Shown here one piece after another: positions 21,391 through 40,832 of a stretch of DNA of 64,000 bases. The notes under the pieces are model-generated. The model saw only the letters and a list, made by a program, of their open reading frames with translations. It did not search any database and was not told the origin of the DNA. Each line of letters starts with the position of its first letter. The stretch's first letter is position 1. Source of the stretch: Pantoea nemavictus (lineage in GTDB: Bacteria; Pseudomonadota; Gammaproteobacteria; Enterobacterales; Enterobacteriaceae); the NCBI RefSeq assembly GCF_037479095.1, contig NZ_JBBGZW010000001.1, positions 1,860,001 through 1,924,000 of the forward strand, given 5' to 3'. The position numbers were made by a program, and so were the translations under genes.

Positions 21391-22299
21391 TCAGCGCGTG
21401 AAAAACTGCGATTCACACTGGCGCGCGATCTCCCACAGCTTGTTACGAATCACCTGTTTCAGCTGCAGCGTCGATTGCGACTGCGGCTGATCGCGGCGAC
21501 TGATTAACATCACCTCAAACGGCAGCGGCTGCGCCACCGGCAGCAGCTTGAGCTGGTTGGCATAACGGCAGGCGGTAAACAGATCGACAATCCCCACGCC
21601 GCCGCCCGCCAGCACCATATCGGCAATCACCGAATAGGTTTTGATCGACAGCGATACCGCAGGATTCAGCCCCTTATCACGCAGCGCGCGGTGCAGCACC
21701 CGGCCGAGCGGATCCTGATTCTGCATCATCAGCAGATTATTGGCGCACAGCCACTCCAGCGTTACCGGCTCATGATGCGTGTGATCGCGCGGCAGCAACG
21801 CTACCATCGAAGACTGAAACAGCGGCTCTGCCAGTAAATCGGCTTCAACCTGCTGGCCGAACACTAGCGCGAAATCGAGCTGATTCTCCATGATCATGCG
21901 GCATAAGGTGCTGAAGTGCTCGGTAACCAACTCGACGCTGACCGACGCCGCCTGCTGCCGCCAGTTCACCAGCGCCGGCGCCAGTACCATCTGACCAAAC
22001 GCGTGCGCAGCCCCGACGCGCACCGTTTGTCCTTCGCCGCGCCGCAGCTGTTCGGTTAGTTGGGTAATTGCCTGTAAACGTTGGTAGATATCTTCCACTT
22101 CCGGCAGTAAGCGCCGCCCTTCTGCGGTGACGATCATGCCCTGCGCGCGCCGTTCAAACAGCGCAAAACCGAGCTGCTGCTCGGCGTGATTCAGCACCCG
22201 GCTGACATTCGGCTGCGACACATTAAGCAGGCGAGCCGCCGCACTGATGCTGCCGGTCTGCACTATTGCCTGAAACACTTCAATATGCCGCAGCCGCAT
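21391..22299 (-). CDS. LysR-family transcriptional regulator of the D-peptide region
   Basis: The 302-residue protein has the N-terminal LysR helix-turn-helix (FQAIVQTGSISAAARLLNVSQPNVSRVLNHAEQQLGFALFER, residues 9-50) and a periplasmic-binding-like effector domain with GGGVGIVDLF near residue 225. The C-terminal part resembles regulators of amino acid and opine catabolism. It begins only 2 bp after the stop of the dipeptidase gene and is transcribed with it, divergently from the first peptide transporter. Control of both units is the simplest inference. The inducing ligand is unknown. Confidence 0.9.
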   Translation of the reverse strand: MRLRHIEVFQAIVQTGSISAAARLLNVSQPNVSRVLNHAEQQLGFALFERRAQGMIVTAEGRRLLPEVEDIYQRLQAITQLTEQLRRGEGQTVRVGAAHAFGQMVLAPALVNWRQQAASVSVELVTEHFSTLCRMIMENQLDFALVFGQQVEADLLAEPLFQSSMVALLPRDHTHHEPVTLEWLCANNLLMMQNQDPLGRVLHRALRDKGLNPAVSLSIKTYSVIADMVLAGGGVGIVDLFTACRYANQLKLLPVAQPLPFEVMLISRRDQPQSQSTLQLKQVIRNKLWEIARQCESQFFTR

Positions 22300-22301
22300 G
22301 A

Positions 22302-23357
22302 TTATTCGCCCCAGGTGGCTTCAAGTACGCGCAGCCAGTTGCCGTGGCAAATCTTCTCCAGCAGCGCGCGCGAATAGCCGCGCGCCGCCAGCGCCTGCAC
22401 CAGCAGCGGGAATCCGGCTACGTCTTTCAGGTCGCCCGGCATGGTTGCGCCATCAAGGTCCGAACCAAATCCGACGCCATCTTCCCCCACTTTTTCCAGC
22501 AGATACTCAACATGACGCACGATGGCATCAACGCCGGTTGGCGCATGGCGATCGCCATCTTCACGCAGGAATGGCACTGCAAAGTTAACCCCGACAAAGC
22601 CGTTGGTTTCGGCAATCGCTGCCAGCTGACGATCGGTGAGATTACGCGACTGCGCGCTTAGCACATGCGCGTTGGAGTGGCTCGCCACCAGCGGTGCATC
22701 GCTGATCTCTGCGGTGTGCCAGAAGCCTTTCTCATCCATATGCGACAGATCGACCATGATGCGGCGGCGATTACAGTCGCGCACCAGCTGCTTGCCCGCT
22801 GCCGTCAGACCGTTGCCGACATCCGGCGACGAGGGATAGAGGAACGGCACGCCGTCGCCGAACTGATTCGGACGACTCCACAGCGGCCCCAGCGTACGTA
22901 ACCCGCTGGCGTACAAGATATCCAGCAGCTCACCGTTGCTATCCAGCGCTTCCGCGCCTTCCACGTGCATCACCACCGCTAACACCTTGTTTTCCATGCA
23001 GTGGCGGATATCGCGCACGCTGCGGCAAATCTTCACCTGCCCGTTCGATGCCTGCTCAATACGCAGCAGCAGCGCCAGCATGGAAAAAGTGGCGTCACGC
23101 GCTGAATTGATAATTTCCTGAGGAAAATCTGCGAGGTCTGGCGCACTTCTTGCAATCAGAGGATGGGACGGCACCCAGGTGGCGAAAATGCCACCTAACA
23201 TATTTCCCTGACGGATACGCGGGAAGTCCATTTGGCCGCTTTTGCTGCCAGTGAAAAAGACATTAACCGCGTCCGGCTGATGGTGCTGCCACAGCTTATT
23301 CAGCACATCGTTATGGCCGTCAAAGACCGGAATATCGAGGGTAATCGAGTCAGACAT
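22302..23357 (-). CDS. Membrane dipeptidase (peptidase family M19, renal dipeptidase-like)
   Basis: M19 enzymes are dizinc dipeptidases that accept dipeptides, commonly including those with a C-terminal D-amino acid. The 351-residue protein has the metal-ligand blocks PVFDGHNDVLNKLW near residue 12, VMHVEGAEAL near residue 125 (bridging glutamate), ASHSNAHVLSAQSRNLTD near residue 220 and GFGSDLDGA near residue 305. No signal peptide is evident, so despite the family name it should be cytoplasmic. The ATG at 23357 was taken; a 31-codon extension upstream is unsupported. It is divergent from the ABC operon and co-transcribed with the LysR gene. Confidence 0.92.
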   Translation of the reverse strand: MSDSITLDIPVFDGHNDVLNKLWQHHQPDAVNVFFTGSKSGQMDFPRIRQGNMLGGIFATWVPSHPLIARSAPDLADFPQEIINSARDATFSMLALLLRIEQASNGQVKICRSVRDIRHCMENKVLAVVMHVEGAEALDSNGELLDILYASGLRTLGPLWSRPNQFGDGVPFLYPSSPDVGNGLTAAGKQLVRDCNRRRIMVDLSHMDEKGFWHTAEISDAPLVASHSNAHVLSAQSRNLTDRQLAAIAETNGFVGVNFAVPFLREDGDRHAPTGVDAIVRHVEYLLEKVGEDGVGFGSDLDGATMPGDLKDVAGFPLLVQALAARGYSRALLEKICHGNWLRVLEATWGE

Positions 23358-23555
23358 GTTGGTCAGTTCCCTGTTCGTGGCAAAGCGCGGTACTGCCTGC
23401 TGGCGGAGCAAATTGCACCAAAAAAGGGCGAGCATCGACGCGTGAAACAAAAGGCTTAGAGCCGGTATTAATCCTCCCGCACAGGAGGAAAGTCAAGACA
23501 AAAAACAATCAAATAACAATTTTTTATTTTAATTATCAATTAGTTGGGAGTTTAC

Positions 23556-25151
23556 ATGGTTACCAGAAGACGTTTTCTTGCAGGATGCACTGCTGTACCT
23601 GTTGTTTCCTACCTCAGCCTGAATTCCACCTTTGCCGCCACGCCACCCAGCATGCTGGTCATCGCGATGCAGCTCGATAACATCACCAGCCTCGATCCGC
23701 ATGAAAGCTTCGAAGCCACCGGCGGCCAGATCTGCGGCAACCTGTATCAACGTTTAGTCACGCCCGATCCGCAACAAGCCGACAAAGTGATTGGTCAGTT
23801 GGCGCAAAGCTGGGACGTCAGCAGCGATAACGGCACTTATACCTTCCATCTCGATCCGGCAGCGACGTTCGCCGATGGTTCGCCGCTCACCGCGGAAGAT
23901 GTGGCGTTCTCGATTGAACGTATCGTCAAGCTGGATAAGAGCCCGGCGTTCATTATCAACCAGTTCGGCTTTACCAAAGACAACGTGACGCAGCTGATCA
24001 CCGCCAAAGATGCACACACCGTGGAGATGAAACTCGGTGCGCCAGCGGCAGAAACCTTCCTGCTGTATTGCCTGTCCGCCACCGTCGGCAGCATCGTGTC
24101 GAAGAAAGCCTGCCTGGCGAATCAGCAGAACAACGATTTTGGCAACGGCTGGCTGAAGCAGCACAGCGCCGGATCCGGGGCTTTCACCCTGCGCACCTGG
24201 AATGCCAGCGAAACGGTGATTCTGGAACTCAGCCCGCAATATGCCGCGCAGAGCAAAATCAAACGCGTGATCCTCAAACATATCGCTGACCCGGCGGCGC
24301 AGGCGCTGATGCTGAAAAAAGGCGATGTCGATGCGGCGTATGACCTCACCACCGAACAGTTGCTGCAGGTGAAAAACGACAGCAGCGTGGCGCTGGTGAA
24401 TCAATCGCTGTCGGCCATCATGCTGATGTCGTGCAACACCAATAATCAGTACCTGAAAAAGCCGCAGGTGTGGCAGGCGCTGAAGTGGGCACTGGATTAC
24501 GACAGCATTCAGAAAAACATTCTGTCGATGAGTTTTGTCACCCATCAGAGTTTCCTGCCGAGCGGTTTCCCGGCGGCGCTGGACGATACGCCATTCCATA
24601 AAGATCTGGCAAAAGCCAAAGCGCTGCTGGCCGAAGCCGGTTATCCGGACGGCTTCGAAATCACCCTCGATCACTACTCGATGCAGCCGTATCCGGACAT
24701 TGCGCAGGCAATTCAAACCCAGCTGGGCGCGATTGGCATCAAAGTGTCATTGATTGCCGCCGAAAACCGTCAGGTGCTGACCAAAATGCGTGCACGTCAG
24801 CATCAGCTGGCGTTGACCGTGTGGGGCGCCGATTACTTTGATCCCAACTCCAACACCGAAGCCTTCTGCGTCAACACCGATAACAGCGATAACGCGCGTG
24901 CGCGTACCCTGGCATGGCGCTGCAGCTGGTCAGATGAAGCGTTCAACAAACTGACCGAGCAGGCGCTGCACGAGCCCGATCCGGCTAAACGTATTGCCCT
25001 CTACCAGCAAATTCAGCAACTGGGGCGTGAAAAAAGTCCGTTCATTTTCATGATGCAGAAGACCAAAAATGTGGCCACCAGCAAAGCGCTGGCTGATGTA
25101 CACATGACCGTGCTGGAGCAGTGGCCGTATGCGCAGGTGAAAAAAGCCTGA
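23556..25151 (+). CDS. Peptide/nickel-type ABC substrate-binding protein with Tat signal
   Basis: This is the periplasmic receptor of the first importer (SBP family 5, DppA/OppA/NikA type). The 531-residue protein starts with a twin-arginine signal, TRRRFLAG, followed by a hydrophobic stretch and cleavage near AFAA-like TFAA. Family blocks include ITSLDPHESFE near residue 45, ATFADGSPLTAEDVAFSIERI near residue 105 and KALLAEAGYPDGFEITLD near residue 355. GGGAG precedes the ATG at 23556. Its TGA overlaps the permease ATG (TGATG). Binding of D-residue-containing peptides is inferred from neighbours only; a metal chelate is an alternative. Confidence 0.92.
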   Translation: MVTRRRFLAGCTAVPVVSYLSLNSTFAATPPSMLVIAMQLDNITSLDPHESFEATGGQICGNLYQRLVTPDPQQADKVIGQLAQSWDVSSDNGTYTFHLDPAATFADGSPLTAEDVAFSIERIVKLDKSPAFIINQFGFTKDNVTQLITAKDAHTVEMKLGAPAAETFLLYCLSATVGSIVSKKACLANQQNNDFGNGWLKQHSAGSGAFTLRTWNASETVILELSPQYAAQSKIKRVILKHIADPAAQALMLKKGDVDAAYDLTTEQLLQVKNDSSVALVNQSLSAIMLMSCNTNNQYLKKPQVWQALKWALDYDSIQKNILSMSFVTHQSFLPSGFPAALDDTPFHKDLAKAKALLAEAGYPDGFEITLDHYSMQPYPDIAQAIQTQLGAIGIKVSLIAAENRQVLTKMRARQHQLALTVWGADYFDPNSNTEAFCVNTDNSDNARARTLAWRCSWSDEAFNKLTEQALHEPDPAKRIALYQQIQQLGREKSPFIFMMQKTKNVATSKALADVHMTVLEQWPYAQVKKA

Positions 25152-26161
25152 TGCCGTTACTGAAGAGAATCGTCAGCACCCTGGGAAGCCTGGTGCTGAC
25201 GCTGTTTGGCCTGTCGGTTTTGACCTTTTTCATCGGCCGCGTCATGCCCACCGATCCGGTGCTGGCGGCGGTCGGCGATAACGCACCGCAATCGGTCGTG
25301 GAGCGCGTACGGGTGGAAATGGGGCTGGATCAGCCCCTTTACGTGCAGTTTGGTCACTACCTCAATCAACTGCTGCATGGCGATCTCGGTAAATCGATCC
25401 TCACCTCCAATCCGGTGAGCACCGATATCGCGCGCTTCTTCCCTGCCACCATGGAGCTGGCAACGGCCGCCATCATCATCGCGGCGTTGATTGGCATTCC
25501 GCTCGGCGTGTGGGCGGCGGTACGCCAGAGTTCGTGGGTCGACCAAACCATTCGCGTGATCTGTCTTGCCGGCCATTCGCTGCCGGTGTTCGTGCTGGCG
25601 CTGCTGAGCCTGCTGGTGTTCTACGCGGTGCTCGGCATTGCGCCCGGCCCCGGACGGCAGGACATCATCTGGCAGGATATGGTGCCGCAGGTTACCGGTT
25701 TCCTCACCATCGACTCGCTGCTGGCGGGTGAAGTTGACGCCTTCTGGGATGCGCTGGCGCACATGGCGCAGCCGGTGCTGATCCTGGCCTATTTCAGCAT
25801 GGCCTACATCACGCGTATGACGCGCACCTTTATGCTCAACGCGTTGAGCGGCGAGTTCGTGATCACCGCGCGCGCCAAAGGGTTGTCGTCACGCCGGGTC
25901 ATCTGGCGCCATGCGTTTCCCACCGTGGCGGTGCAGCTGGTGACGGTGCTGGCGCTGACCTACGCCGGCTTGCTCGAGGGCGCGGTGGTGACGGAAAACG
26001 TCTTCGCCTGGCCTGGCCTCGGCCAATATCTCACCACCTCGCTGATGAACGCCGACATGAATCCGGTGGTTGGCGCGACGTTGCTGGTCGGCACCGTGTA
26101 TGTGCTGCTCAACCAGCTGGCTGACCTTCTCTATCGACTTTGGGACCCGCGCGTAAAATGA
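25151..26161 (+). CDS. Peptide ABC transporter permease (DppB/NikB type)
   Basis: This is the first inner-membrane subunit of the importer, 336 residues with six predicted helices. The N-terminal segment LKRIVSTLGSLVLTLFGLSVLTFFIGRVMPTDP and the LGLDQPLYVQFGHYLNQLLHGDLG-like block are hallmarks of DppB-type permeases. The ATPase-contact EAA loop appears as FVITARAKGLSSRRVIWRHAFP near residue 245. Its start overlaps the receptor stop and its stop overlaps the next gene (ATGA), so translation is coupled along the operon. Confidence 0.93.
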   Translation: MPLLKRIVSTLGSLVLTLFGLSVLTFFIGRVMPTDPVLAAVGDNAPQSVVERVRVEMGLDQPLYVQFGHYLNQLLHGDLGKSILTSNPVSTDIARFFPATMELATAAIIIAALIGIPLGVWAAVRQSSWVDQTIRVICLAGHSLPVFVLALLSLLVFYAVLGIAPGPGRQDIIWQDMVPQVTGFLTIDSLLAGEVDAFWDALAHMAQPVLILAYFSMAYITRMTRTFMLNALSGEFVITARAKGLSSRRVIWRHAFPTVAVQLVTVLALTYAGLLEGAVVTENVFAWPGLGQYLTTSLMNADMNPVVGATLLVGTVYVLLNQLADLLYRLWDPRVK

Positions 26162-27057
26162 TCTTCTTCTCTCGTGACTGGCTGCTCGACGACACGCCAG
26201 CCAACCGTCGCCAGGCGGTGTGGGGCCGGCGTTATCGCCTGTGGCTAAGCCTGCGCAGCAATCCCCTGGCGATGGCCGGCCTGCTGGTGATTAGCGTGAT
26301 GCTGTTTCTGGCGCTGTTTGCACCGTGGCTGACGTCGTTCGATCCCGGCGCGCAGCATCTGGAAAACCGCCTCGCTGCGCCTTCTGCCGCGCACTGGCTC
26401 GGCACCGATGAGCTGGGGCGCGATGTCTGGACGCGTATTATCTACGGCGGCCGCACTACTCTCGGCATGGTAATCGCTGTGGTGCTGCTCACCGCGCCGC
26501 TCGGCCTGCTGATCGGCTGCATCGCCGGTTACGCCGGCGGCTTCATCGATAAAGCACTGATGCGCATTACCGATATTTTCCTCGCCTTCCCGCGTTTGAT
26601 TTTGGCGCTGGCCTTTGTTGCCGCACTGAAACCGGGCGTGGAGAGTGCGATTTTAGCGATTGCCCTCACCTCGTGGCCGCCGTATGCGCGCCTGGCGCGC
26701 GCCGAAACCCTGCAGTTCCGCCACAGCGACTTTATCGCTGCCAGCCGTCTGACTGGCGCCTCGCCGCTGCGCATCATTCTGCGCCATATCATGCCGCTGT
26801 GCGTGCCGAGCCTGATTGTACGCATCACGCTGGATATGAGTTCCATCATCATTACTGCCGCCAGCCTGGGCTTTCTCGGCATGGGCGCGCAGCCGCCCTC
26901 ACCGGAATGGGGCACGATGATCGCCACTGCGCGTCGCTTCCTGTTCAGCGAATGGTGGGTGCCCTTAATGCCCTGCATCGCGATTTTCCTGACGTCGCTG
27001 GCATTCAACTTTCTCGGCGACGGTCTGCGCGACGTGCTGGATCCTAAGGAGCGCTAA
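26158..27057 (+). CDS. Peptide ABC transporter permease (DppC/NikC type)
   Basis: This is the second membrane subunit, 299 residues. It has the usual DppC N-terminus with one helix and the WLGTDELGRDVWTRIIYGGRTTLGMV block near residue 85. The EAA loop is FIAASRLTGASPLRIILRHIMP near residue 200, and the C-terminus is FNFLGDGLRDVLDPKER. The ATG at 26158 overlaps the preceding stop by ATGA. The next gene begins immediately after its TAA. Confidence 0.93.
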   Translation: MIFFSRDWLLDDTPANRRQAVWGRRYRLWLSLRSNPLAMAGLLVISVMLFLALFAPWLTSFDPGAQHLENRLAAPSAAHWLGTDELGRDVWTRIIYGGRTTLGMVIAVVLLTAPLGLLIGCIAGYAGGFIDKALMRITDIFLAFPRLILALAFVAALKPGVESAILAIALTSWPPYARLARAETLQFRHSDFIAASRLTGASPLRIILRHIMPLCVPSLIVRITLDMSSIIITAASLGFLGMGAQPPSPEWGTMIATARRFLFSEWWVPLMPCIAIFLTSLAFNFLGDGLRDVLDPKER

Positions 27058-27885
27058 ATGTTGGTGGAAATTGAAAATCTGCGCATCGCCTTCCGTTCAC
27101 GCACCGAGACCTTTGAAGCGGTGCGCGGCGTGAGTTTTAGCGTGGGCCGCGAGAAGTTCGCCATCGTTGGCGAAAGTGGCTCTGGCAAATCGTTGACCGC
27201 GCGCAGCCTGATGCAGTTGCTGCCGGGCAATGCCGAGGTCAGCGCCGACGTACTGCGCTTTGATGGCATCGATCTGCGCGGTGCCAGCGAAAAAGTGCTG
27301 CGTAAAATTCGCGGCAAGCGCGTCGGTTTTATCCTGCAGGACCCGAAATATTCGCTCAATCCGGTGATGACCATTGGCCAGCAGATTGCCGAAGCCTGGC
27401 GCGAGCACAAAGGCGGCAGCCATAAAGCAGCGATGCAGGCAGCGATTGCGCTGCTGGAACAGGTGAAGATTCGCGATCCGGCCGCCGTGGCGAAACGCTA
27501 TCCGCATGAAGTGTCTGGCGGCATGGGGCAGCGCGTGATGATTGCCATGATGCTGGCGCCCGATCCGGAACTGCTGATCGCCGATGAACCCACCAGCGCG
27601 CTGGATGCCACGGTGCAAGCCGAGATCCTCAAGTTGATTGACGAGCTGGTGTCAGCGCGCGGCATGGGGCTGATCCTGATTAGCCACGATCTGCCGCTGG
27701 TGTCGCACTTCTGCGATCGCGTGGCGGTGATGTACGCCGGTCGCATCGTCGAGCTGTTGGATGCCGGGCAACTGCAGCAGGCGCAACATCCGTATACGCG
27801 CGGTTTGCTGGCCTGCTTGCCCTCGCTGCGCCATCCGCGTGAGCGTTTACCCGTATTGCAGCGCGATGCCGCATGGCGGGACTAG
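27058..27885 (+). CDS. Peptide ABC transporter ATPase (DppD/NikD type, short form)
   Basis: This is the cytoplasmic ATPase subunit of the first importer. Walker A GESGSGKS is near residue 40, the signature SGGMGQR near residue 152 and Walker B LLIADEPTSALD near residue 172. At 275 residues it is shorter than typical DppD (about 325), ending soon after the HPYTRGLLACLPSL motif. This size resembles the Nik system. A family 1 palindromic repeat (27909-27987) separates it from the second ATPase gene. Confidence 0.93.
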   Translation: MLVEIENLRIAFRSRTETFEAVRGVSFSVGREKFAIVGESGSGKSLTARSLMQLLPGNAEVSADVLRFDGIDLRGASEKVLRKIRGKRVGFILQDPKYSLNPVMTIGQQIAEAWREHKGGSHKAAMQAAIALLEQVKIRDPAAVAKRYPHEVSGGMGQRVMIAMMLAPDPELLIADEPTSALDATVQAEILKLIDELVSARGMGLILISHDLPLVSHFCDRVAVMYAGRIVELLDAGQLQQAQHPYTRGLLACLPSLRHPRERLPVLQRDAAWRD

Positions 27886-27908
27886 AACATTTAAAGCCGC
27901 ACATATCC

Positions 27909-27987
27909 GTAGCGGCGCGATTTATCGCGCATTTTGATGGCGACACCGTGCCCCATCCCGACATTGCGCAATAAATTGCGCCGCTAC
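27909..27987. repeat. REP/BIME-like palindromic pair, family 1, copy d (inside the ABC operon)
   Basis: Hairpin units GCGCGATTTATCGCGC and GCGCAATAAATTGCGC face outward, with GTAGCGG and CCGCTAC at the outer edges, as in copy c. The element occupies most of the 136-bp gap between the two ATPase genes, which otherwise belong to a tightly overlapped operon. Confidence 0.92.
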
Positions 27988-28021
27988 GAAATGGTGTATG
28001 TAAAACGAATACAGGCATCCC

Positions 28022-28762
28022 ATGATTCAAATCGATAACCTGCGCATCAACTTCGGTGCGCACACGGCGGTGAAAGACGTCAGCTTTGCAGTTGGCAATG
28101 GCGAAAGCTTTGGCCTGGTCGGTGAAAGCGGCTCGGGCAAATCCACTATTCTGCGCGCCCTCGCCGGGCTGAATGCTGACTGGCAAGGCAGCATGCTGTT
28201 TGGCGGCATGCAGCTCAGCGCCAAACGCAGCCGCGCCTTCTATCGCCAGGTGCAGATGGTGTTTCAGGACCCGTTTGGTTCGCTGCATCCGCGTCAAACC
28301 ATCGATCGTATCCTGCACGAACCGCTGCTGGTGCATCAGCTCGATCGCGCCGAACAGCGCATCAGCCAGGCATTAAGCGAAGTCGGTTTACCGGCGGCAG
28401 TACGTTTTCGCTATCCGCATCAGCTGTCGGGTGGCCAGCGTCAGCGCGTAGCGATTGCCCGCGCACTGATCGCCGAACCGGAAGTGCTGCTGCTGGATGA
28501 GCCGACTTCAGCGCTGGATGTGTCGGTGCAGGCCGAAATCCTCAATTTACTCAGCGATCTACGCAGCGAGCGCAAACTCACCTACATTATGGTGACGCAT
28601 AACCTCGCGGTGGTAACGCACCTGTGTCAGCGCATTGGCGTGATGCAGAATGGTGAGATGGTGGAGCAGCTGAGCGCCGACGATTTGCGTGCGCGGCGCA
28701 TCCAGCATCCGCATACCGCCCAACTTTTCGATCTCAGCATGACGCTGGAGGAACCGGCATGA
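28022..28762 (+). CDS. Peptide ABC transporter ATPase (DppF/NikE type, short form)
   Basis: This is the second ATPase of the importer, 246 residues. Walker A GESGSGKST is near residue 37, QMVFQDPFGSLHPRQT near residue 78, the signature LSGGQRQR near residue 138 and Walker B LLLDEPTSALD near residue 158. Like its partner it is short, stopping after IQHPHTAQLFDLS without the extended C-terminal region of DppF. The stop overlaps the next ATG (ATGA), so the hydrolase that follows belongs to the same operon. Confidence 0.93.
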   Translation: MIQIDNLRINFGAHTAVKDVSFAVGNGESFGLVGESGSGKSTILRALAGLNADWQGSMLFGGMQLSAKRSRAFYRQVQMVFQDPFGSLHPRQTIDRILHEPLLVHQLDRAEQRISQALSEVGLPAAVRFRYPHQLSGGQRQRVAIARALIAEPEVLLLDEPTSALDVSVQAEILNLLSDLRSERKLTYIMVTHNLAVVTHLCQRIGVMQNGEMVEQLSADDLRARRIQHPHTAQLFDLSMTLEEPA

Positions 28763-30270
28763 CCGCTAACTGGCAACACGCCGCGCAGGTCGCACAACAG
28801 ATCACTGAAAGCTGGCAACAGCCTGGCGCACCGGGCGGCGCAATCGTGCTGTTTGATGCGCAGCAGATTCACTCAACCCACTGCGCCGGCTTGGCCGATT
28901 TGGCGCAGCAAACGCCGTTTAGCGCCGACAGCGTGGTGCGTTTCGCCTCCATCACCAAACATATCTTTGCCGCTTTAGTGACGGGACCCGGCCGCCGCTA
29001 TCTGCAGCTTGATGACACGCTGGCGCAGCATCTGCCGCAGCTCAGCGGCGCCAACGGGCAGATTACCGTTGGTCAGGCGCTGGATATGAGCAGCGGCTTG
29101 CCGGACGTGCGCGAAACCTTATCGCTGCTGGGATTGTCGGTGTACAACGCGACGAGCGCCGCCGACCTATTGGATTTTATCGCGCGTGAAGGCGAGCTCA
29201 ACTATGCGCCCGGCAGCGAAATCTCATACACCAACACCGGCTATCGGCTGGTGGAAGAAGCGTTAAAAGCCAAAGGCGTGGGCTTCAACGATCTGCTGCA
29301 GCAGTACCTCTGCGATCCGCTGGATATCAACCTGATTGCGCCGGAAAGCTGGTTTGATGTCGTGCCAGGTTTAGTGCCGGGTTACTGGCAAAACGGCGCA
29401 CGCTGGCAGCTTGCCAGCGCCGGTTTACATCTTTCTGCTTCGGGTAGCGTGACCGGCAGTCTGAACCATTTGACGCGCTGGCTGCAGAGCCTGCTGGCCG
29501 ATAGCGGACCGGGCGCGGGCGTGCTGCAGCGCCTGACTGCGCCGCGCAATCTCAACGATGGCCGCACCAGCGGTTACGGTTTGGGCATCACCAGCTCGAC
29601 GCTTGGCAGCCAGACGCTGTTTGGCCACGGCGGTTCGCATGCAGGCTATAAGAGCTATTTCCTGCTGCATCCGGAGTTAAAACTTGGCGTGGCGCTGGTC
29701 GCCAATCGCGAAGATGTCACCACCTCGGAAAGCGTGTTGCGCGTGATGGCGGCGCTGCTTAAGCGCGAATTGCCGGAGAAAGGACACGATTTAACGCCGG
29801 GGCTGTACGTGGCGGAAAACGCGGCCGACTGGCTGGAGATCAACGGCGTGACGGCCACCTGGCTCGGCGCCGGTGAAACGTTGTGGCGTGACGATGCGCA
29901 TGGCGATGCGGTGTCGCTCTCCAGCACCTTCCCGCTGCAGTTACGCCATGATGGCGCGGCGATTGTGGGTGAAATCGGTCATGCCGCACGACGTTTTGTG
30001 CCGGTGCAGGCCGATCGGGCCAGCCTCGATAATCTGCAAGGCCGCTGGTTGGCGCCGCAGTGGCGCAGCGAGTTGGTGATTGAGGACGACAGCCTAATTA
30101 TGGGCATCGGCCCGGCAGCCATTCGTGCCCGGTTGCAGTCGCTGGGCGGCGATCGCGTACTGGCCACCGCGCAGGATGGGCCGTGGGAGAAGCGTTTTGT
30201 GATTGCGCGTGAAGGCGATTCGCTGCGGTTAATGCTGAACCGCAGCCGCGTGGTGAAGTTTAGGCGTTAA
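28759..30270 (+). CDS. Serine hydrolase, beta-lactamase/D-aminopeptidase-like (family S12)
   Basis: The 503-residue protein has the penicillin-binding fold: SITK at residues 64-67 (nucleophile Ser64), YTN near residue 155 and HGG in LFGHGGSHAGYKS near residue 291. After about residue 340 comes an extra C-terminal beta-rich region, as in D-aminopeptidase DAP and related S12 enzymes, which release N-terminal D-amino acids from peptides. No signal peptide is seen, so it should act in the cytoplasm on imported peptides. It is the last gene of the first ABC operon. A simple esterase function remains possible. Confidence 0.87.
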   Translation: MTANWQHAAQVAQQITESWQQPGAPGGAIVLFDAQQIHSTHCAGLADLAQQTPFSADSVVRFASITKHIFAALVTGPGRRYLQLDDTLAQHLPQLSGANGQITVGQALDMSSGLPDVRETLSLLGLSVYNATSAADLLDFIAREGELNYAPGSEISYTNTGYRLVEEALKAKGVGFNDLLQQYLCDPLDINLIAPESWFDVVPGLVPGYWQNGARWQLASAGLHLSASGSVTGSLNHLTRWLQSLLADSGPGAGVLQRLTAPRNLNDGRTSGYGLGITSSTLGSQTLFGHGGSHAGYKSYFLLHPELKLGVALVANREDVTTSESVLRVMAALLKRELPEKGHDLTPGLYVAENAADWLEINGVTATWLGAGETLWRDDAHGDAVSLSSTFPLQLRHDGAAIVGEIGHAARRFVPVQADRASLDNLQGRWLAPQWRSELVIEDDSLIMGIGPAAIRARLQSLGGDRVLATAQDGPWEKRFVIAREGDSLRLMLNRSRVVKFRR

Positions 30271-33324: not shown

Positions 33325-34209
33325 TTAGCTCTTTAATTTGGGATCGAGCGTGTCGCGCAGCGCGTCACCCAGCAGGTTAAACGCCAGCACGGTAATAAAT
33401 ATCGCCAGCCCCGGAAACACGCTGACGTGCCACAAGCCGGCCATCATCATGCTGCGGCTCATCGCCAGAATATTGCCCCACTCCGGCACATCGGGTTCCG
33501 GGCCAAGGCCGATAAAACTCAGCCCGGCAGCAGTGAGAATACTGGTGCCGATACGCATGGTGAAATAGACAATCACGTTAGAGAGCGTGCCCGGCAGAAT
33601 ATGGCGCAGCAGAATCACGCGATCCGGCGCACCGGCACAGCGCACCGCTTCGACGTACGCCGCCTGCTTCAGCGACAAGGTGGAAGCACGCACGATACGC
33701 GCAAATACCGGCACGCTGAAGATCGCCACCGCGATGATGACGTTATTCAGCCCCGGGCCGAGAATCGCTACCACCGCAATCGCCAGCAGCATGCCAGGAA
33801 AGGCAAACAGCACATCGGAGCCGCGCATGATCAGCATATCGATCCAGCGGCCATAGTAGCCCGCCAGCAGCCCCAGCAGCACGCCAACCACCATGCCGAG
33901 CGTGACCGACAGCACGCCGACGTACAGCGAGATGCGCGCGCCAAAGATGATGCGGCTGAAGAGATCGCGGCCCAGTTCGTCGGTGCCCATCCAGTGCGTG
34001 CTGGACGGCGGCGAGGACAGCGCCATCCAGTCCGGCGCCATCGGGTCCCAGGGCGCGAGCCACGGCGCGAAAATAGCCACCAGCACCAGCAGCAGTACAA
34101 AACCACCAGAGACCAGCGCCAGCGGATTACGCACCAGCGCGTGCAGGAAATCACGCCACGGCGAACGGATCGCCTCCTGCGCGTGGGCAGGCAGAGATTG
34201 CAGACTCAT
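33325..34209 (-). CDS. Peptide ABC transporter permease (GsiD/DppC type)
   Basis: This is the second permease of the second importer, 294 residues with about six helices. Blocks seen are HWMGTDELGRDLFSRIIFGARISLYVG near residue 70, the EAA loop AYVEAVRCAGAPDRVILLRHILP near residue 185, and the C-terminus FNLLGDALRDTLDPKLK. The ATG overlaps the preceding stop (TAATG). It resembles GsiD of the glutathione importer but is not close enough to assign glutathione as substrate. Confidence 0.92.
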   Translation of the reverse strand: MSLQSLPAHAQEAIRSPWRDFLHALVRNPLALVSGGFVLLLVLVAIFAPWLAPWDPMAPDWMALSSPPSSTHWMGTDELGRDLFSRIIFGARISLYVGVLSVTLGMVVGVLLGLLAGYYGRWIDMLIMRGSDVLFAFPGMLLAIAVVAILGPGLNNVIIAVAIFSVPVFARIVRASTLSLKQAAYVEAVRCAGAPDRVILLRHILPGTLSNVIVYFTMRIGTSILTAAGLSFIGLGPEPDVPEWGNILAMSRSMMMAGLWHVSVFPGLAIFITVLAFNLLGDALRDTLDPKLKS

Positions 34210-35138
34210 TACGGCTCCTGTCGCAGGCGAATCGCTGGGTTGACCACGGCATACAGCAGATCGACCAGCAGGTTAATCACAATAAATTCAAACACGAACA
34301 GCATCACTAACGCCTGGATCACCGGCTGATCCTGCGCCTTGATCGACTCGATCAACAGCCAACCTAATCCCGGCCAGTTGAAGACGCTTTCGACCACGAT
34401 CGATCCGCCGAGCAGAAAACCAAACTGCAAGCCGAGCATGGTGATCACCGGGATCAATGCGTTACGCATCACATGTTTCCACGTCACCAGCCGATTGCGC
34501 AGCCCTTTGGCTTTGGCGGTGCGCACGTAATCTTCCTGCGCCACTTCGAGAAACGCCGAGCGGGTGAAGCGCGCCATCACCGCCGCCACCGACGAACCGA
34601 GCGTGATAGCCGGTAATACGATGTCGCTGGGTTGATTGAAGCCGCTGACCGAAAACAGGCCAAACGGCATGGCGACGAACTGGATCAGCAACAGACCCAG
34701 CCAGAAGGTCGGCATCGAGATGCCGCCGACGGCGACGCTCATCAAGGTCCAGTCCTGCCATTTACCGCGTTTCAGGGCGGCAAAGACGCCGAGGAACAGG
34801 CCGAGAATGACCGACCAGGCAAACCCCGCCAGCGCCAGCCACATCGTCGGCATAAAGCCTTGTTTGATGACGTCCAGCACCGGCTGTTGGGTGCGGTAAG
34901 TGACGCCAAGATCGCCGCGCAGCAGGCCGCCGATCCAGTTGATATATTGCTGCGGCAGCGGATCGTTGAGCCCGAGATGTTGACGCGCGGCTTCCACCGC
35001 AGCCAAAGGCGCATCCGGCCCAGCGTAGATGCGCGCCGGATCGCCAGGCAGCAGCTTGATGAAGCCGAAGACCAGCAGCGAGACCACCAGCAGAACGGGG
35101 ATCATCTCCAGCAGTCGGCGAATGATGTATGCGAACAT
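34209..35138 (-). CDS. Peptide ABC transporter permease (GsiC/DppB type)
   Basis: This is the first permease of the second importer, 309 residues. The start MFAYIIRRLLEMIPVLLVVSLLVFGFIKLLPGDPARI and LGLNDPLPQQYINWIGGLLRGDLG-type block are typical of DppB/GsiC. The EAA loop is DYVRTAKAKGLRNRLVTWKHVMRNALIP near residue 205. AAAGGAA precedes the ATG at 35138. Between it and the receptor gene lies a 275-bp gap with a family 3 repeat, so its expression may differ from that of the receptor. Confidence 0.92.
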   Translation of the reverse strand: MFAYIIRRLLEMIPVLLVVSLLVFGFIKLLPGDPARIYAGPDAPLAAVEAARQHLGLNDPLPQQYINWIGGLLRGDLGVTYRTQQPVLDVIKQGFMPTMWLALAGFAWSVILGLFLGVFAALKRGKWQDWTLMSVAVGGISMPTFWLGLLLIQFVAMPFGLFSVSGFNQPSDIVLPAITLGSSVAAVMARFTRSAFLEVAQEDYVRTAKAKGLRNRLVTWKHVMRNALIPVITMLGLQFGFLLGGSIVVESVFNWPGLGWLLIESIKAQDQPVIQALVMLFVFEFIVINLLVDLLYAVVNPAIRLRQEP

Positions 35139-35413: not shown

Positions 35414-36955
35414 TTACTTAAACGCCGCCTGATTAAACAGGAAGTTACCATCCGGCAGCATCGACACACCGCTCAGCGTGCTGCGCTTGCCAACCAGATT
35501 GTCTGGCGTGCCGAGGAAAGCCACCGGTGCCTCTTTCCACAACACTTTCTGCGCTTCAGCGTACGCCTCGCCACGTTTGGCCGGATCGGCGGTGGCTAAG
35601 CCACCGGCAATCGCTTTGTCGGCTTCGGCATTGCTGAAGTACGAAACGTTGTACGAGGTTGGCACCCAGGATTCGGTGGCATAAAGGGGACGCAGCGCCC
35701 AGTCGGCATCACCGGTTGAGGTCGACCAGCCGCCGTAATAGAGGTCAAATTCCGCCTCTTTCGGATCCTTCACGCCCCACAGTTTGGCGTTACGCGTACC
35801 GGAATCCATTGGCGTGACCGTGGCGCGAATGCCGACCGTTGCCAGCTGCGCTTTCAGCACCTGCGCGGCACGCACGCTGGCGGTGGCATTGGTGACCCAC
35901 AGTTTCAGGTCGAGGCCGTTCGGGTAACCGGCGGCTTTCAACAGCGCTTTGGCTTCATCCGGTGCATAGCGATAGTTCGGCGCGCTCTGCTTCTGATAGA
36001 ACTGCACGCCTGCAGGAATCGCCGAGCTGGCCGGTTTGCCCAAGCCGGCAAAGGCGACTTTTAGCCACAGATCGCGGTCGATGGCGTAGTTGATCGCCTG
36101 GCGTACACGTACATCGGCCAGCGGTTTGTGCTGGGTGTTGATCGCCATGTAGTAGAGGTAAATGCTCGGATCGCGCTGGATCGCCAGTTTGCTATCGCTC
36201 TGCACGGTGGCGATCAGATCCGACGGTAGCGGCCAGATCGCATCAACCTGGCCCGACTTCAGTGCCGCGACGCGCGTAGCATCTTCCGGACTTGGCGAGA
36301 AGATCACGTTATCCACCTTCGGCCAGCCCTTTTGCCAGTAGCCATCATACTTTGCCAGCGTCACCGCTTTACCCGGCTGCCAGGTGACGAATTTGAAGGG
36401 ACCGGTCCCCACCGGATGCAGACGCAGCTGCGCTTCTTCTGGATATTGCTTGAGGATTGCCGGGCTCCACATCACTGCCGACGGATGCGCCAGCGTGTTG
36501 ATGAAGGCACCAAACGATTGGTTAAGCTCGATTTTTACCTGATCCGGCGCCAGCACCGTCACCTTCTCAATCATCTTGTACAGACTGTTGCGCTTGAGGC
36601 CTTTTTTCTGGTCGGCGAGGCGATCGAGGTTGGCTTTTACCGCTTCGGCATCAAACGGCGTGCCGTCCTGGAAAGTGACGTCTTTACGCAGCGTCAGGGT
36701 AAATTCGGTGGCGCTGTCGTTGCTGGTGTAGCGGGTGGCCAGCCACGGCTGCAGCTTCATCTTTGCATCGAACTGGAACAGGCGTTCAAAGATGCCGCTC
36801 TGCACCGAGTAGCTGACGTTGTCTGAGGTATCGTGCGGATCGAGGCCGGTGATGTCGGCATACATCGAAATGCGCAGATCCTGTGCCTGAGCCGCGGCGG
36901 CCAGCGAGAGGGTCAATCCGAGCGCAAGCGCCGTACGGCGGAAAATCGGGTTCAT
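35414..36955 (-). CDS. Peptide ABC substrate-binding protein (GsiB-like)
   Basis: This is the periplasmic receptor of the second importer, 513 residues with a Sec signal peptide (MNPIFRRTALALGLTLSLAA, cleaved near AQAQ at residue 25). Family 5 blocks are ITGLDPHDTSDNVSYSVQSGIFERLF near residue 40, VTFQDGTPFDAEAVKANLDRL near residue 95, HPVGTGPFKFVTWQPGKAV near residue 175 and NGLDLKLWVTNATASVRAAQVLKAQL near residue 345. The size equals that of GsiB. AGGAG precedes the ATG. The substrate is not fixed by sequence; peptide uptake fits the neighbours. Confidence 0.93.
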   Translation of the reverse strand: MNPIFRRTALALGLTLSLAAAAQAQDLRISMYADITGLDPHDTSDNVSYSVQSGIFERLFQFDAKMKLQPWLATRYTSNDSATEFTLTLRKDVTFQDGTPFDAEAVKANLDRLADQKKGLKRNSLYKMIEKVTVLAPDQVKIELNQSFGAFINTLAHPSAVMWSPAILKQYPEEAQLRLHPVGTGPFKFVTWQPGKAVTLAKYDGYWQKGWPKVDNVIFSPSPEDATRVAALKSGQVDAIWPLPSDLIATVQSDSKLAIQRDPSIYLYYMAINTQHKPLADVRVRQAINYAIDRDLWLKVAFAGLGKPASSAIPAGVQFYQKQSAPNYRYAPDEAKALLKAAGYPNGLDLKLWVTNATASVRAAQVLKAQLATVGIRATVTPMDSGTRNAKLWGVKDPKEAEFDLYYGGWSTSTGDADWALRPLYATESWVPTSYNVSYFSNAEADKAIAGGLATADPAKRGEAYAEAQKVLWKEAPVAFLGTPDNLVGKRSTLSGVSMLPDGNFLFNQAAFK

Positions 36956-36976: not shown

Positions 36977-38839
36977 TTAGCGCGAAACAAAGTCAGCGAC
37001 CCAGTGTTGCGGAGCAACCTGGCGATAACGCGGTTTAATGACCGTTTCTCCCACCTTGCGCAGCGGCGAAGGAATTTCGCTCTCTTCGAAAGTGCGGGGT
37101 TGACGGTTCTGGGGATCGGCTACCGGCACCGAGGCCAGCAGACGTTGGGTATAAGGATGTTGTGGCTGGTTAAATATCGACTGGCGCGGCCCGAGCTCGA
37201 CAATCTGGCCGAGATACATCACCGCCACGCGGTTGGCGATGCGCTCTACCACCGCCATATCGTGCGAGATAAAGATCCACGCCACGCCGGTTTGCTGCTG
37301 CAGATCCATCATCAGATTGACCACCTGCGCCTGAATCGACACGTCGAGCGCCGAGACCGCTTCATCGGCGATGATCACTTTGGGTTTCAACGCCATGGCG
37401 CGTGCGATGGCGATGCGTTGACGCTGGCCACCGGAAAACTCGTGCGGATAGCGCTGCGCATGTTCCGGCAGCAGTCCCACGCTTTTTAGCAGCGCATCGA
37501 CCTGCGGCGAAGCTTCTTCCAGCGACTTCACCATGCCGTGCAGCAGCAGCGGTTCAGCAATGGTGAAACCAACCGTCAAACGTGGATTGAGCGAGGCGTA
37601 GGGATCCTGGAACACCATCTGGATTTCACGGCGCAGCGGCTGGAACTGCGCCTCTTTAAGATTGGCAATTTCATTACCCTGGAAATGGATGCTGTCGGCG
37701 TCGCTGTTGATCAGCCGCATCAGCGCACGACCGGTGGTGGATTTACCGCAGCCGCTTTCGCCGACAATCGCCAGGGTTTCGCCCGGCCACAGGCTGAAAT
37801 CAATCTGCTCCACCGCGTGCACCTGGTGGGTCAGCGCCGAGAAAATCCCGCTGCGAATCGGGTAGTACACTTTCAGACCGCGCACATCCAGCAGCGGCGT
37901 TTCGTCGTAGCGCGCGGTGCGCTGCTCGCTGCGATCGTTGGCCTCGCTGCCCAACAGCGGAAAACGCTGCGGCCACGCGTGTTCGCGCATATCGCCCAGC
38001 TTCGGCACCGCGGCGAGTAGCGCTTTGGTATAAGGATGCTGCGGCGCATTGAAGATGTCGCTGACCGTGCCCTGCTCAACCACTTCGCCTCGCAGCATCA
38101 CCACCACGCGATCGGCGATTTCGGCCACCACGCCCATGTCGTGGGTGATAAACAGCACCGCCATCTGCTTCTCGCGTTGCAGGTCGCGCAGGATGTGCAG
38201 AATGCGCGCCTGCACCGTAACGTCCAGCGCGGTGGTCGGCTCATCGGCAATCAACAGCTGCGGATCGCAGGCCAGCGCCTGGGCAATCATCACGCGTTGG
38301 CGCATGCCGCCCGACAGCGAATGCGGATAGCTTTTCATAACGCGATCCACATCGGCGATGCGCACCTGACGCAGTAATTCGCGCGCGCGCGCCTCGGCCT
38401 GGCTTTTGTCACAAATCTGGTGGTCACGCAGCGCTTCGGTCAGCTGATCGCCAACGCGTAATACCGGATTGAGCGAGGTCATCGGCTCCTGAAAAATCAT
38501 CGCCATCTCACGGCCACGCAGGGCGCGACGTTGAGGTTCATTCAGGCTGGCCAGTTGATGGGCTTTGCCCTGACGATCGCGAAACTGCATGCTGCCGCGA
38601 TCGATACGGCCAGAGGCGGCGAGTAAGCCCATCACCGCCAGCGAGGTGACCGATTTACCCGAACCACTTTCGCCCACCACGGCGACGATTTCGCCCTGAT
38701 GAATATTAAAACTGATGCCCTTTAGCGCCTGATTTTCGCCGCTGCGGCCGCGAAAGCTGACGCTGAGGTCCTGAATCGCGAGCACCGGTGGTGAACCGGC
38801 AACGCTGGCGGCGTTGGGGGTAAGTAAAGTGTCCGTCAT
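36977..38839 (-). CDS. Fused two-domain peptide ABC ATPase (GsiA-like)
   Basis: Both ATPase domains of the second importer are in one 620-residue chain, as in GsiA. Domain 1 has Walker A GESGSGKS near residue 55, signature LSGGMRQR near residue 172 and Walker B LIADEPTTALD near residue 191. Domain 2 has GESGCGKSTTG near residue 363, FSGGQRQR near residue 473 and IIADEAVSALD near residue 493. Linker motifs HPYTKALLAAVPKLG and HPYTQRLLASVPVADP end each domain. GGAGCAACG precedes the ATG, and the epimerase gene lies 18 bp upstream. Confidence 0.95.
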   Translation of the reverse strand: MTDTLLTPNAASVAGSPPVLAIQDLSVSFRGRSGENQALKGISFNIHQGEIVAVVGESGSGKSVTSLAVMGLLAASGRIDRGSMQFRDRQGKAHQLASLNEPQRRALRGREMAMIFQEPMTSLNPVLRVGDQLTEALRDHQICDKSQAEARARELLRQVRIADVDRVMKSYPHSLSGGMRQRVMIAQALACDPQLLIADEPTTALDVTVQARILHILRDLQREKQMAVLFITHDMGVVAEIADRVVVMLRGEVVEQGTVSDIFNAPQHPYTKALLAAVPKLGDMREHAWPQRFPLLGSEANDRSEQRTARYDETPLLDVRGLKVYYPIRSGIFSALTHQVHAVEQIDFSLWPGETLAIVGESGCGKSTTGRALMRLINSDADSIHFQGNEIANLKEAQFQPLRREIQMVFQDPYASLNPRLTVGFTIAEPLLLHGMVKSLEEASPQVDALLKSVGLLPEHAQRYPHEFSGGQRQRIAIARAMALKPKVIIADEAVSALDVSIQAQVVNLMMDLQQQTGVAWIFISHDMAVVERIANRVAVMYLGQIVELGPRQSIFNQPQHPYTQRLLASVPVADPQNRQPRTFEESEIPSPLRKVGETVIKPRYRQVAPQHWVADFVSR

Positions 38840-38857: not shown

Positions 38858-39823
38858 TTACAGCCAGATTTGGCCTTGAGCGTAAGTAAGGAACGGCGAG
38901 CTGTCAGCGGCCAACCAGATCGGGCCATCGAGGTCGACGTGTTCCGCGGCAATCGCCACCGGCAACGCCGCCTCCATCGCCAGTGATGAGCCGAGCATGC
39001 AGCCCACCATCAGCCGCATATCCAGCTTCTGCGCCTCTTCCACCATCGCCAGCGCTTCGGTTAAACCGCCGCACTTATCCAGCTTGATGTTGATCATTTC
39101 GTAGCGATTGCGCAGCGGCGCGATGTCTTCTCGCGTGTGGCAGCTCTCATCGGCACAGATTGGAATCGGGTGCGCAAAACGCTGCAGCGCCTGATCCTGA
39201 CCCGCCGGCAGCGGCTGCTCGACCATCGCAATGTTAAAGCTGACCAGCGCGTTGAGCAGGCTGGGCAAATCCACGCCTGACCAGGCTTCGTTAGCATCAA
39301 TGATTAACGTGGCGCGCGGCGCGGCCTGACGAATCGCGGCGACTTTCTCCAGAATTTCGTCGCGATTGAGTTTGATTTTCAGCAGGATGGCACCGCGTGA
39401 TACCGCATCGGCAGCAGCGGCGGCCATGTTCGCGATGGAATCGAGGCTGAGGGTTTCGGCGGTGATCACCGAGGGCGGCTGAAGGCGTTCGCACTGTTGC
39501 CACAGCGTGTGTTTCGCCAATGCAGCATCCAGGCGCCACAGCGCACAGTCCAGCGCATTACGCGCTGAACCCGCAGACAAACGGCTTTGCAGATCGAGGC
39601 GGCTCAAACCCGCTTCAATGTCGGCGCGCAGCGCGTCCAGCTCGGCGTTGACGCTTTCCGGCGTTTCATCGTAGCGCGGCGTTGGCGTACATTCGCCACG
39701 GCCAATAAAGCCGTTTTGCTCCAGCGTTACGCGAATTACCGTAACCGCCGTACGCGTGCCACGCGAGATGGCAAACGGACGCGCCAGCGGCAGCTCCAGC
39801 ACTTCAATCTGCATGCGCCGCAT
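38858..39823 (-). CDS. Dipeptide epimerase / N-acetyl-D-glutamate racemase (enolase superfamily, YcjG/DgcA-like)
   Basis: This enzyme inverts the alpha-carbon of a dipeptide residue (as L-Ala-D/L-Glu epimerase YcjG does) or, in the DgcA group, of N-acetyl-D-glutamate. The 321-residue length equals that of E. coli YcjG. The catalytic KIK lysines are in LLKIKLNRDE near residue 150, metal ligands in IDANEAW, VEQPLP and CADESCH, and the second lysine in NIKLDKCGGLTE near residue 248. The ATG at 39823, 1 bp after the DUF1611 stop, gives the family length. Pairing with a DUF1611 gene favours the DgcA role. Confidence 0.9.
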   Translation of the reverse strand: MRRMQIEVLELPLARPFAISRGTRTAVTVIRVTLEQNGFIGRGECTPTPRYDETPESVNAELDALRADIEAGLSRLDLQSRLSAGSARNALDCALWRLDAALAKHTLWQQCERLQPPSVITAETLSLDSIANMAAAAADAVSRGAILLKIKLNRDEILEKVAAIRQAAPRATLIIDANEAWSGVDLPSLLNALVSFNIAMVEQPLPAGQDQALQRFAHPIPICADESCHTREDIAPLRNRYEMINIKLDKCGGLTEALAMVEEAQKLDMRLMVGCMLGSSLAMEAALPVAIAAEHVDLDGPIWLAADSSPFLTYAQGQIWL

Positions 39824-39824
39824 G

Positions 39825-40832
39825 TTAGCCGCGCTCCTGCAGCAGCGCGGCGATATCCGCAATGCCGAAGCGCACCGGATCGGTGGCAGGCACGCCGAAT
39901 TCAGCGCTGACCTCTGCACAATAGGCGCGCGCTTCCTCTTCGCTGTAGTTCGAGGTGTTGATGGCGAAACCGGCCAGCTGCACGGCATCACTGGTGACAT
40001 GCGCCGCGCGCAGGTTGGCTTCGACACAATCTTTCAGGCTGACCATCGGCTGATGCGGCAGATGGCGCATATGCGGACGGCCCATTTCGTGGCACATCAC
40101 CAGCCAGTGCGGCTGCGCACCGTGAATCAGGCCCATGCTGACGCCAGCATAGGAAGGATGGAACAGCGAACCCTGACCTTCGACGATATCCCAGTGATCG
40201 GCGTCATTGGCGGGCGACAGCGCTTCAACGGCACCGGCGATGAAGTCGGCAATCACCGCATCAATCGCAATCCCTTCGCCTGCCACTAAAATGCCGGTCT
40301 GACCGGTAGCGCGGAAATCGGCTTTCATGCCGCGTTCGCGCATCGCCGCTTCCAGCGCCAGCGAGGTGTACATTTTGCCCACTGAGCAGTCAGTGCCAAC
40401 AGTAAGCACTCGCTTACCTGTACGCTTTTTACCGCTGCCGACGTTCAGTTTTGGACGCATATGGCGCAGGTCGAACAGCTCCACGCCGAACTCTTTGGCC
40501 AATGCCACCAGCTCAGGCTCATCCACCAAACGATGATGTAAACCGCTGGCAACATTCATACCAGCGGAAATGGCGCTTTTTACCGTGTCGAGCCAGTGTG
40601 TTGGCAGGTAACCACCCGCATTGGCGGTACCGAGCACCAGCGTTTTGGCACCGCGCGCTTTAGCAGCGTTAATATCGAGTTCGTCGAGGCCAAGGCTGAC
40701 GGCGCAGCCCGGCAATTTGATTTCGCCAACGCACTGCTCCGGTCGCCAGACCTGAATGCCGCGTGCCGTTTTAGCGGCCAGTGGATCGGTTACGTCGCCG
40801 AGGAAGAGTAAATAAGGTTGTGGGATCAGCAT
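39825..40832 (-). CDS. DUF1611 family protein, probable D-glutamate N-acetyltransferase (DgcN-like)
   Basis: DUF1611 proteins of the DgcN type acetylate D-glutamate so that a DgcA racemase can convert it to N-acetyl-L-glutamate. The 335-residue protein shows a Rossmann-like N-terminal half (LVLGTANAGGYLP near residue 68) and a P-loop-like half with TVGTDCSVGKMYTSLALE near residue 145. FRATGQTGILVAGEGIAIDAVIADF lies near residue 175, and IVEGQGSLFHPSYAGVSMGLIHG near residue 215. It is the first gene of the nine-gene minus-strand operon and abuts the epimerase gene. The function rests on family knowledge and this pairing. Confidence 0.82.
   Translation of the reverse strand: MLIPQPYLLFLGDVTDPLAAKTARGIQVWRPEQCVGEIKLPGCAVSLGLDELDINAAKARGAKTLVLGTANAGGYLPTHWLDTVKSAISAGMNVASGLHHRLVDEPELVALAKEFGVELFDLRHMRPKLNVGSGKKRTGKRVLTVGTDCSVGKMYTSLALEAAMRERGMKADFRATGQTGILVAGEGIAIDAVIADFIAGAVEALSPANDADHWDIVEGQGSLFHPSYAGVSMGLIHGAQPHWLVMCHEMGRPHMRHLPHQPMVSLKDCVEANLRAAHVTSDAVQLAGFAINTSNYSEEEARAYCAEVSAEFGVPATDPVRFGIADIAALLQERG

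Follow-up and report, generated by a model that had tools for sequence, protein, structure and literature searches.

Introduction

Among the closest described systems is the DgcN-DgcA D-glutamate pathway, as outlined in PMC10845958 and PMC11747546. The locus compared with it here lies in a window of 64,000 nucleotides from Pantoea nemavictus (GCF_037479095.1, contig NZ_JBBGZW010000001.1, forward-strand positions 1,860,001 to 1,924,000; positions below are those of the window). Between 21391 and 40832, an island contains a dgcN-dgcA pair together with two family-5 peptide importers and several peptidases. It is probably a composite, mobile, D-glutamate-controlled peptide-catabolic cassette with an accessory importer. 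Three further systems invite comparison: dpp-ykf of Bacillus subtilis, and the iaaA-gsiABCD glutathione importer and the ddpXABCDF D-dipeptide system of E. coli. A literature search returned no description of this gene set among the matches listed (the best 20 of 395 for one query), with subscription journals thinly covered.

Gene Content of the Island

All the protein families named in an initial annotation of this DNA are present, each above its Pfam cut-off; a gene of the FAA-hydrolase family between S12 and M55 had been overlooked. The features, with scores in bits, are as follows.

21391..22299, minus strand: LysR regulator, DgcR-type by orthology and clade, 2 bases 3′ of M19
22302..23357, minus strand: M19 dipeptidase family (PF01244, 310.4; PDB 3ly0, 361.4)
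23414..23430, plus strand: NtrC-type dyad in the divergent promoter between M19 and the substrate-binding protein (SBP) gene (coordinates derived by hand)
23556..25151, plus strand: family-5 SBP of importer 2 (PF00496, 273.2)
25121..27057, plus strand: permeases of importer 2, at 25121-26161 and 26140-27057 (Pfam)
27058..28762, plus strand: ABC ATPases of importer 2, at 27058-27885 and 28022-28762 (Pfam)
28759..30270, plus strand: S12 serine hydrolase (PF00144, 145.4; best PDB match, the D-aminopeptidase 1ei5, 74.8)
30339..31217, minus strand: FAA-hydrolase family protein, accessory (PF01557, 203.2)
31339..32160, minus strand: M55 D-aminopeptidase family (PF04951, 326.7; DppA, 1hi9, 127.6)
32264..33322, minus strand: S58 (DmpA/P1) aminopeptidase family (PF03576, 340.8; 2drh, 244.9; 1b65, 158.5)
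33325..34209, minus strand: GsiD-like permease (GsiD model 410.8, cut-off 484)
34209..35138, minus strand: GsiC-like permease (GsiC model 394.1, cut-off 463)
35414..36955, minus strand: GsiB-like substrate-binding protein (GsiB model 465, cut-off 594; 1uqw, 401.2)
36977..38839, minus strand: GsiA-like fused double ATPase (GsiA model 833.4, cut-off 1077)
38858..39820, minus strand: dgcA-type N-acetyl-D-Glu racemase or dipeptide epimerase (DgcA and YcjG models; 1jpd, 302.7)
39825..40832, minus strand: dgcN, D-glutamate N-acetyltransferase family (DUF1611), first gene of the core operon (NCBIfam DgcN; 7xrj, 373.7)
40921..40937, minus strand: predicted DgcR box TATAGCCGCAGGTTATA upstream of dgcN (motif search)

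The likely starts of the epimerase (39820) and of M19 (23357) lie inward of the longest open reading frames, which extend to 40027 and 23450, respectively. The minus-strand core operon has the order dgcN-dgcA-gsiA-gsiB-gsiC-gsiD-S58-M55, where gsi denotes Gsi-like genes. On the plus strand, a block of SBP, two permeases, two ATPases, and S12 is found, from which M19 diverges. The island is several transcription units and not a single block. As the end of M19 and the start of the LysR gene are 2 bases apart, the regulator is probably carried on the M19 transcript in this genome. In the closest named match, Pantoea sp. RIT-PI-b, the island proteins are 99%–100% identical. The contig that carries the window measures 4.30 Mb, of a 5.19-Mb genome.

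The Regulator and Its Box

A LysR gene lies within 2.5 kb of dgcN in 15 of 42 stand-alone dgcN loci, a set of stretches that includes neither the four second copies nor the two genomes whose matches are ∼35%. When these 15 LysR proteins are compared with 79 of the 83 LysRs of the genome that carries the window (the other 4 were not recovered), 14 have their best match in the window LysR. In the tree, the 14 dgc-linked LysRs group with 8 core LysRs in a single clade with support of 99/94, and the other 78 own LysRs fall outside it. By these measures, the window LysR is orthologous to the LysR that is linked to dgcN in other bacteria, DgcR.

A palindromic box with the consensus TATARCCnnAGGTTATA is found typically ∼105 bases before dgcN, and the single perfect copy in the whole genome precedes dgcN in the island. 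With up to two mismatches, the box is present at 46 of 48 core dgcN loci (the remaining two have three mismatches) and at 20 of 20 dgcA-only loci, counts that are descriptive because the box was drawn from the core loci. In the independent set, the stand-alone dgcN loci with this regulator, 9 of 14 carry the box at up to two mismatches and 11 of 14 at up to three. At up to two mismatches, it occurs in none of the 28 stand-alone dgcN loci that lack this regulator and in none of 48 shuffled upstream regions. The orthologous LysR, and a box that keeps company with it, make a D-glutamate-type signal likely.

The second-best box in the genome (C1, 2.09 Mb) lies beside genes that by eye resemble AsnC and MioC, and led nowhere. 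Ten Pectobacterium loci (L032, L033, L035, L036, and L038-L043) have an extra DgcR-like box, with one or two mismatches, at ∼10735 of the locus stretch, in the 3′ end of M55. At L035, L039, and L041-L043, a box of the same quality is observed at ∼11950-12220 of the stretch, ∼83 bases upstream of LysR; the position of the boxes in these five loci suggests autoregulation.

The DgcN-DgcA Pair

The DgcN protein scores 528.3 bits with the NCBIfam DgcN model (cut-off 480), and the DgcA protein scores 426.7 with the DgcA model (cut-off 400) and 361.7 with the YcjG model (cut-off 343). The pairing of a DUF1611 protein with a DgcA-type epimerase, proposed in the initial annotation, is supported by the curated cut-offs, and the pair is accompanied by the regulator and box of dgcN loci. 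A second epimerase elsewhere in the genome scores 428.5 with the DgcA model and 596.6 with the YcjG model against the same cut-offs, which rules out DgcA as the sole dipeptide epimerase of the genome. By eye, the neighbors of this second gene resemble mpaA and tpx.

Core loci without dgcN, in Pectobacterium and its kin, offer a natural experiment on DgcA, for dgcA is retained there under purifying selection with an altered Arg24 column. In G222, the sole such genome in the phylum sample, dgcN was not found genome-wide. At the column of Arg24 in E. coli AEE, Arg is present in 1 of 18 dgcN-less core loci, the rest having N, S, Q, or C; it is present in 22 of 22 dgcN-bearing core loci together with the window, and in 40 of 41 loci of the stand-alone kind. 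This comparison was limited to stop-free dgcA matches of >250 residues, of which 40 are near and 42 far; the census described below counts dgcA in 66 near loci. The median ratio of nonsynonymous to synonymous substitution rates (dN/dS) of dgcA in dgcN-less loci is 0.098 (16 sequences, 70 pairs); in the same comparison it is 0.056 for gsiB, 0.089 for S58, 0.023 for M55, and 0.025 for LysR, so that dgcA is the least constrained of the five. The two DgcA proteins from dgcN-less loci that were scanned fall under the DgcA cut-off and over that of YcjG. At L075, which has no dgcN, the Arg is kept. The pattern, drawn from related sequences and few events, suggests that dgcN may have been lost first and DgcA redirected afterwards.

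The Core Importer and Its Peptidases

All four subunits of the core importer score best with Gsi models, and all four fall under the GsiABCD equivalog cut-offs. Elsewhere in the genome, a GsiB (1040.3, cut-off 594) and a GsiC (629.7, cut-off 463) both pass. A true glutathione importer was therefore rejected. The 275 bases between gsiB and gsiC (35139-35413) contain a long inverted repeat, which perhaps sets the ratio of binding protein to permease.

In the PF04951 domain of the M55 protein, residues identical to D8, E10, H60, H104, H115, and E133 of 1hi9, which we take to be active-site residues, are found at the aligned positions. With the DppA equivalog, the protein scores 174.1, under the cut-off of 430. 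An S58-M55 pair is also present in L065-L070 (Serratia and a Vibrio), where no other island genes were matched in the stretch.

Two core loci are incomplete in the importer. The core of L250 lacks gsiABCD, and the second block lies on another contig of its genome; the core of L044 has no gsiA or gsiB, and the second block adjoins it. It is as if the second importer could substitute for the Gsi-like one in these two cases.

The Second Block

The S12 protein contains SITK, YTN, and HGG motifs, whose roles are presumed here, and scores 95.4 with the D-aminopeptidase (DAP) equivalog NF009622, under the cut-off of 443. The N terminus of the importer 2 SBP reads TRRRFL, which resembles a twin-arginine signal.

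In the promoter of the block, a dyad with two mismatches to TGCACY-N5-GGTGCA, presumably the NtrC consensus, is present. Over 18 second-block regions, the mean is 1.83 mismatches versus 4.04 in shuffles, for a consensus that was picked after the alignment had been viewed. The best site occupies the aligned position in 11 of the 18 regions and lies elsewhere in 7. Matches with up to two mismatches are common in the genome (1007 strand-wise versus 439 for the control), so only the aligned position favors NtrC, and it hints weakly at NtrC control of the block. No sigma-54 site was found in the 18 regions (3.17 versus 3.13 mismatches in shuffles).

Orthologs of the importer 2 permease (at least 83% identity) occur in 4 of 295 genomes of the order, all 4 among the 11 with M55, and in two of them the second block and M55 are on separate contigs. 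The chance of this overlap is 1e-6 by a naive draw and ∼3e-5, by hand, when the genome of the window is set aside; the genomes are related. Eleven further genomes of the order have only 52%–57% permease matches, of which six were inspected besides the own-genome paralog. That paralogous importer (C1, 4.08 Mb) adjoins a gene that by eye resembles the enolase superfamily, and led nowhere. Next to LysR, an MFS transporter (19933-21285) is closest to a D-galactonate model (279.4, cut-off 395). A 55% relative stands beside M19 in the stand-alone block L168, so that the transporter may belong to the accessory block.

The initial annotation had placed the second importer in the same system as the first. 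This holds insofar as the block is found only in core-bearing genomes, even when unlinked, although it has its own promoter. The further claim of one pathway under one regulator finds no support in that form, as the M19/SBP/S12 block has a box-free divergent promoter and is missing from 18 of 40 complete-core loci.

Related Loci and Mobility

The gene order recurs in other genomes, which speaks for more than a chance assembly. A census covered 78 loci selected because they have M55; a gene was counted when it reached 40% of its L003 score, and genes past contig ends were scored as lacking, here and in the slot counts. Of these loci, 73 have S58, 64 the full set of four Gsi-like genes, 66 dgcA, 47 dgcN, 65 LysR, 27 the entire second block, and 16 FAA. 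The nine-gene core (dgcN, dgcA, four Gsi-like genes, S58, M55, and LysR) is complete in 40, 22 of them with the second block and 18 without.

The slot between M55 and LysR is variable. It contains nothing recognized (gaps mostly <750 bases), iaaA, the isoaspartyl-peptidase gene (∼1.2-1.5 kb), the second block (∼7.9-9.5 kb), or the second block with iaaA (L034, L044, L051, and L076). Of the iaaA loci, 4 also have the complete second block and 23 do not, among the latter L054 with a broken block, and iaaA sits in the slot in all 24 where LysR was found. At L052 and L077, the second block lies past LysR and not in the slot. The slot of L252 has iaaA and M19, and the importer is absent.

Among 299 genomes sampled from the phylum, dgcN is found in 46 and M55 in 12 (both E 1e-20); three have both, one of these on different contigs. 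None of the 42 stand-alone dgcN stretches contains the Gsi-S58-M55 set, and one, L111, has S58- and S12-like genes within ∼6 kb. Conversely, the stretches of L085-L089 have gsiABCD-S58-M55 but no dgcNA, and in all five gsiA adjoins an iaaA match, Pfam-confirmed in L085 and L086. From these two kinds of locus, the core looks like a D-glutamate unit fused to an iaaA-Gsi-S58-M55 unit. M55 relatives of 34%–35% identity in L090-L093 lack S58.

An Enterobacter copy of the core, from dgcN to LysR, is matched over 80% or more of its length by 35 records of plasmids (20 from Klebsiella, 3 from Enterobacter, and 12 from Pantoea ananatis), and the order is intact in 4 of 4 plasmid copies inspected. On one Enterobacter plasmid, a permease, two ATPases, and iaaA are convergent with LysR, beside an IS5-like transposase. 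At least 80% of the dgcN-dgcA-gsiA stretch is present in 5 of 5426 E. coli genomes, on the chromosome; at the one locus inspected, the full core adjoins transposases. The plasmid copies in Klebsiella, Enterobacter, and Pantoea suggest that the cassette travels as a unit.

Proposed Function and Alternatives

We consider it likely that the island is a D-peptide cassette controlled by a DgcR-type LysR and its box, leading from gamma-D-glutamyl import to N-acetyl-L-Glu, with the second block as an accessory. The regulator would switch on dgcN-dgcA-gsiABCD-like-S58-M55 through the palindromic box before dgcN. The core importer would take up peptides with D-residues, most likely gamma-D-glutamyl peptides of the murein type, and in the cytoplasm S58 and M55 would free the N-terminal residues, L or D. 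DgcN would acetylate the free D-Glu and DgcA would invert the product to N-acetyl-L-Glu. The second importer, with the M19 and S12 hydrolases, would be an accessory under separate control, supplying the same enzymes. The gene content, the LysR orthology, the box and its association with this regulator, the recurrent assembly, and the co-occurrence are direct observations. With family names from curated models, they lead us to infer the inducer, the imported substrate (murein, other D-peptides, or isopeptides), the enzyme specificities, and the flow between them. The original reading of the island as a D-peptide system is partly supported, in that D-peptidase families share an operon with dgcN-dgcA. 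If the proposal is correct, enterobacteria have a dedicated feeding route for D-peptides, of which the predicted sensor, operator, and importer can each be tested. More tentatively, the locus may be a self-contained plasmid-borne cassette for the murein of other bacteria, comprising a D-glutamate sensor, a gamma-D-glutamyl importer, D-peptidases, D-Glu racemization, and a range-widening slot filled with iaaA, the M19/S12 importer, or nothing.

Several findings weigh against the D-peptide cassette. When three mismatches are allowed, the genome shows no enrichment for the box (32 matches versus 55 for a reversed-pattern control), so weak sites carry no meaning. The box is absent from the second-block promoter (5.72 versus 5.53 mismatches in shuffles), and one common box for both blocks was rejected, since these promoters score like shuffles. 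The DgcA model is non-discriminating, as the other epimerase of the genome passes too, and the DgcA and YcjG models thus do not fix the substrate of DgcA. One clade has dgcA and no dgcN at the locus. The relatives of S58 and M55 are named at family level only. Concerning importer substitution, L079 lacks gsiABCD in its stretch and has there of the second block only M19, with a partial M55 match; L250 comes from a draft of ∼190 contigs, where a misjoin is possible. Finally, iaaA is present in 27 of 78 loci, which points to isopeptides.

Indeed, the last point is shared with a general system for side-chain-linked isopeptides (beta-aspartyl or gamma-glutamyl), for example from damaged proteins, in which D-Glu would be one case of several. 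This is rather unlikely. The iaaA-gsiABCD-S58-M55 units without dgcNA in five genomes (L085-L089), the slot position of iaaA in 24 loci with LysR, and the glutathione importer as the nearest named importer family all speak for it, but the composite operon has the regulator and the box that belong to dgcN loci, and no iaaA match is found in the window. Glutathione or L-peptide import, with the D-Glu genes merely along for the ride, is very improbable: the best scores of all four subunits are with Gsi models, yet they miss the cut-offs that other GsiB and GsiC proteins of the genome pass, and the regulator and box are of the D-Glu type. It also appears unlikely, somewhat more so than the isopeptide system, that the M19-importer-S12 block is a neighbor with an unrelated job. 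Such a neighbor would fit three observations: the block has a divergent promoter of its own, in which a different dyad is present and the DgcR box is not; 18 of the 40 complete cores lack the block; and copies exist apart from the core. However, the separate copies are still in core-bearing genomes (4 of 4, among 295), the block stands beside the core in two arrangements, the slot of L252 combines M19 with iaaA in the absence of the importer, and S12 at E 1e-40 is found in 1 of 299 phylum genomes, that of the window.

Other Features of the Window

A REPIN-like 16-base palindrome, GCGCRATTTATYGCGC, occurs as six pairs with starts 45-51 bases apart (21315-21380, 27915-27981, 30276-30336, 31266-31326, 660-720, and 10093-10153), three of them at the module borders MFS/LysR, S12/FAA, and FAA/M55. 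Within two mismatches, there are 24 strand-wise matches versus 0.92 expected. Rfam matches in the window are a fluoride riboswitch (16827-16902), a TwoAYGGAY RNA (49745-49818), and a Rev39 5′ untranslated region (63687-63994).

Comparison with Known Systems

Like ddpXABCDF of E. coli, the island has an importer beside a hydrolase and a putative NtrC-type dyad before the second block; it differs in having M19 and S12, in that no sigma-54 site was found, and in that no VanX-type family is present among the island proteins scanned. With iaaA-gsiABCD it shares a fused GsiA and Gsi-like subunits, and its relatives also carry iaaA, whereas the island importer falls under the Gsi cut-offs and stands with S58-M55. 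The initial annotation called the island parallel to dpp-ykf and largely non-homologous in content. The content is partly different, in that the island instead has S58, DgcN, M19, S12, and LysR control, and no homologs of YkfA or YkfC (LD-carboxypeptidase and NlpC/P60 families) are present among the island proteins scanned; the M55 D-aminopeptidase, the enolase-superfamily epimerase, and the family-5 peptide importer are, however, in common. With the stand-alone loci of the DgcN-DgcA pathway, the island has dgcN, dgcA, the orthologous LysR, and the palindromic box in common, but in the island the operon that begins with the pair also encodes a peptide importer and two peptidases.

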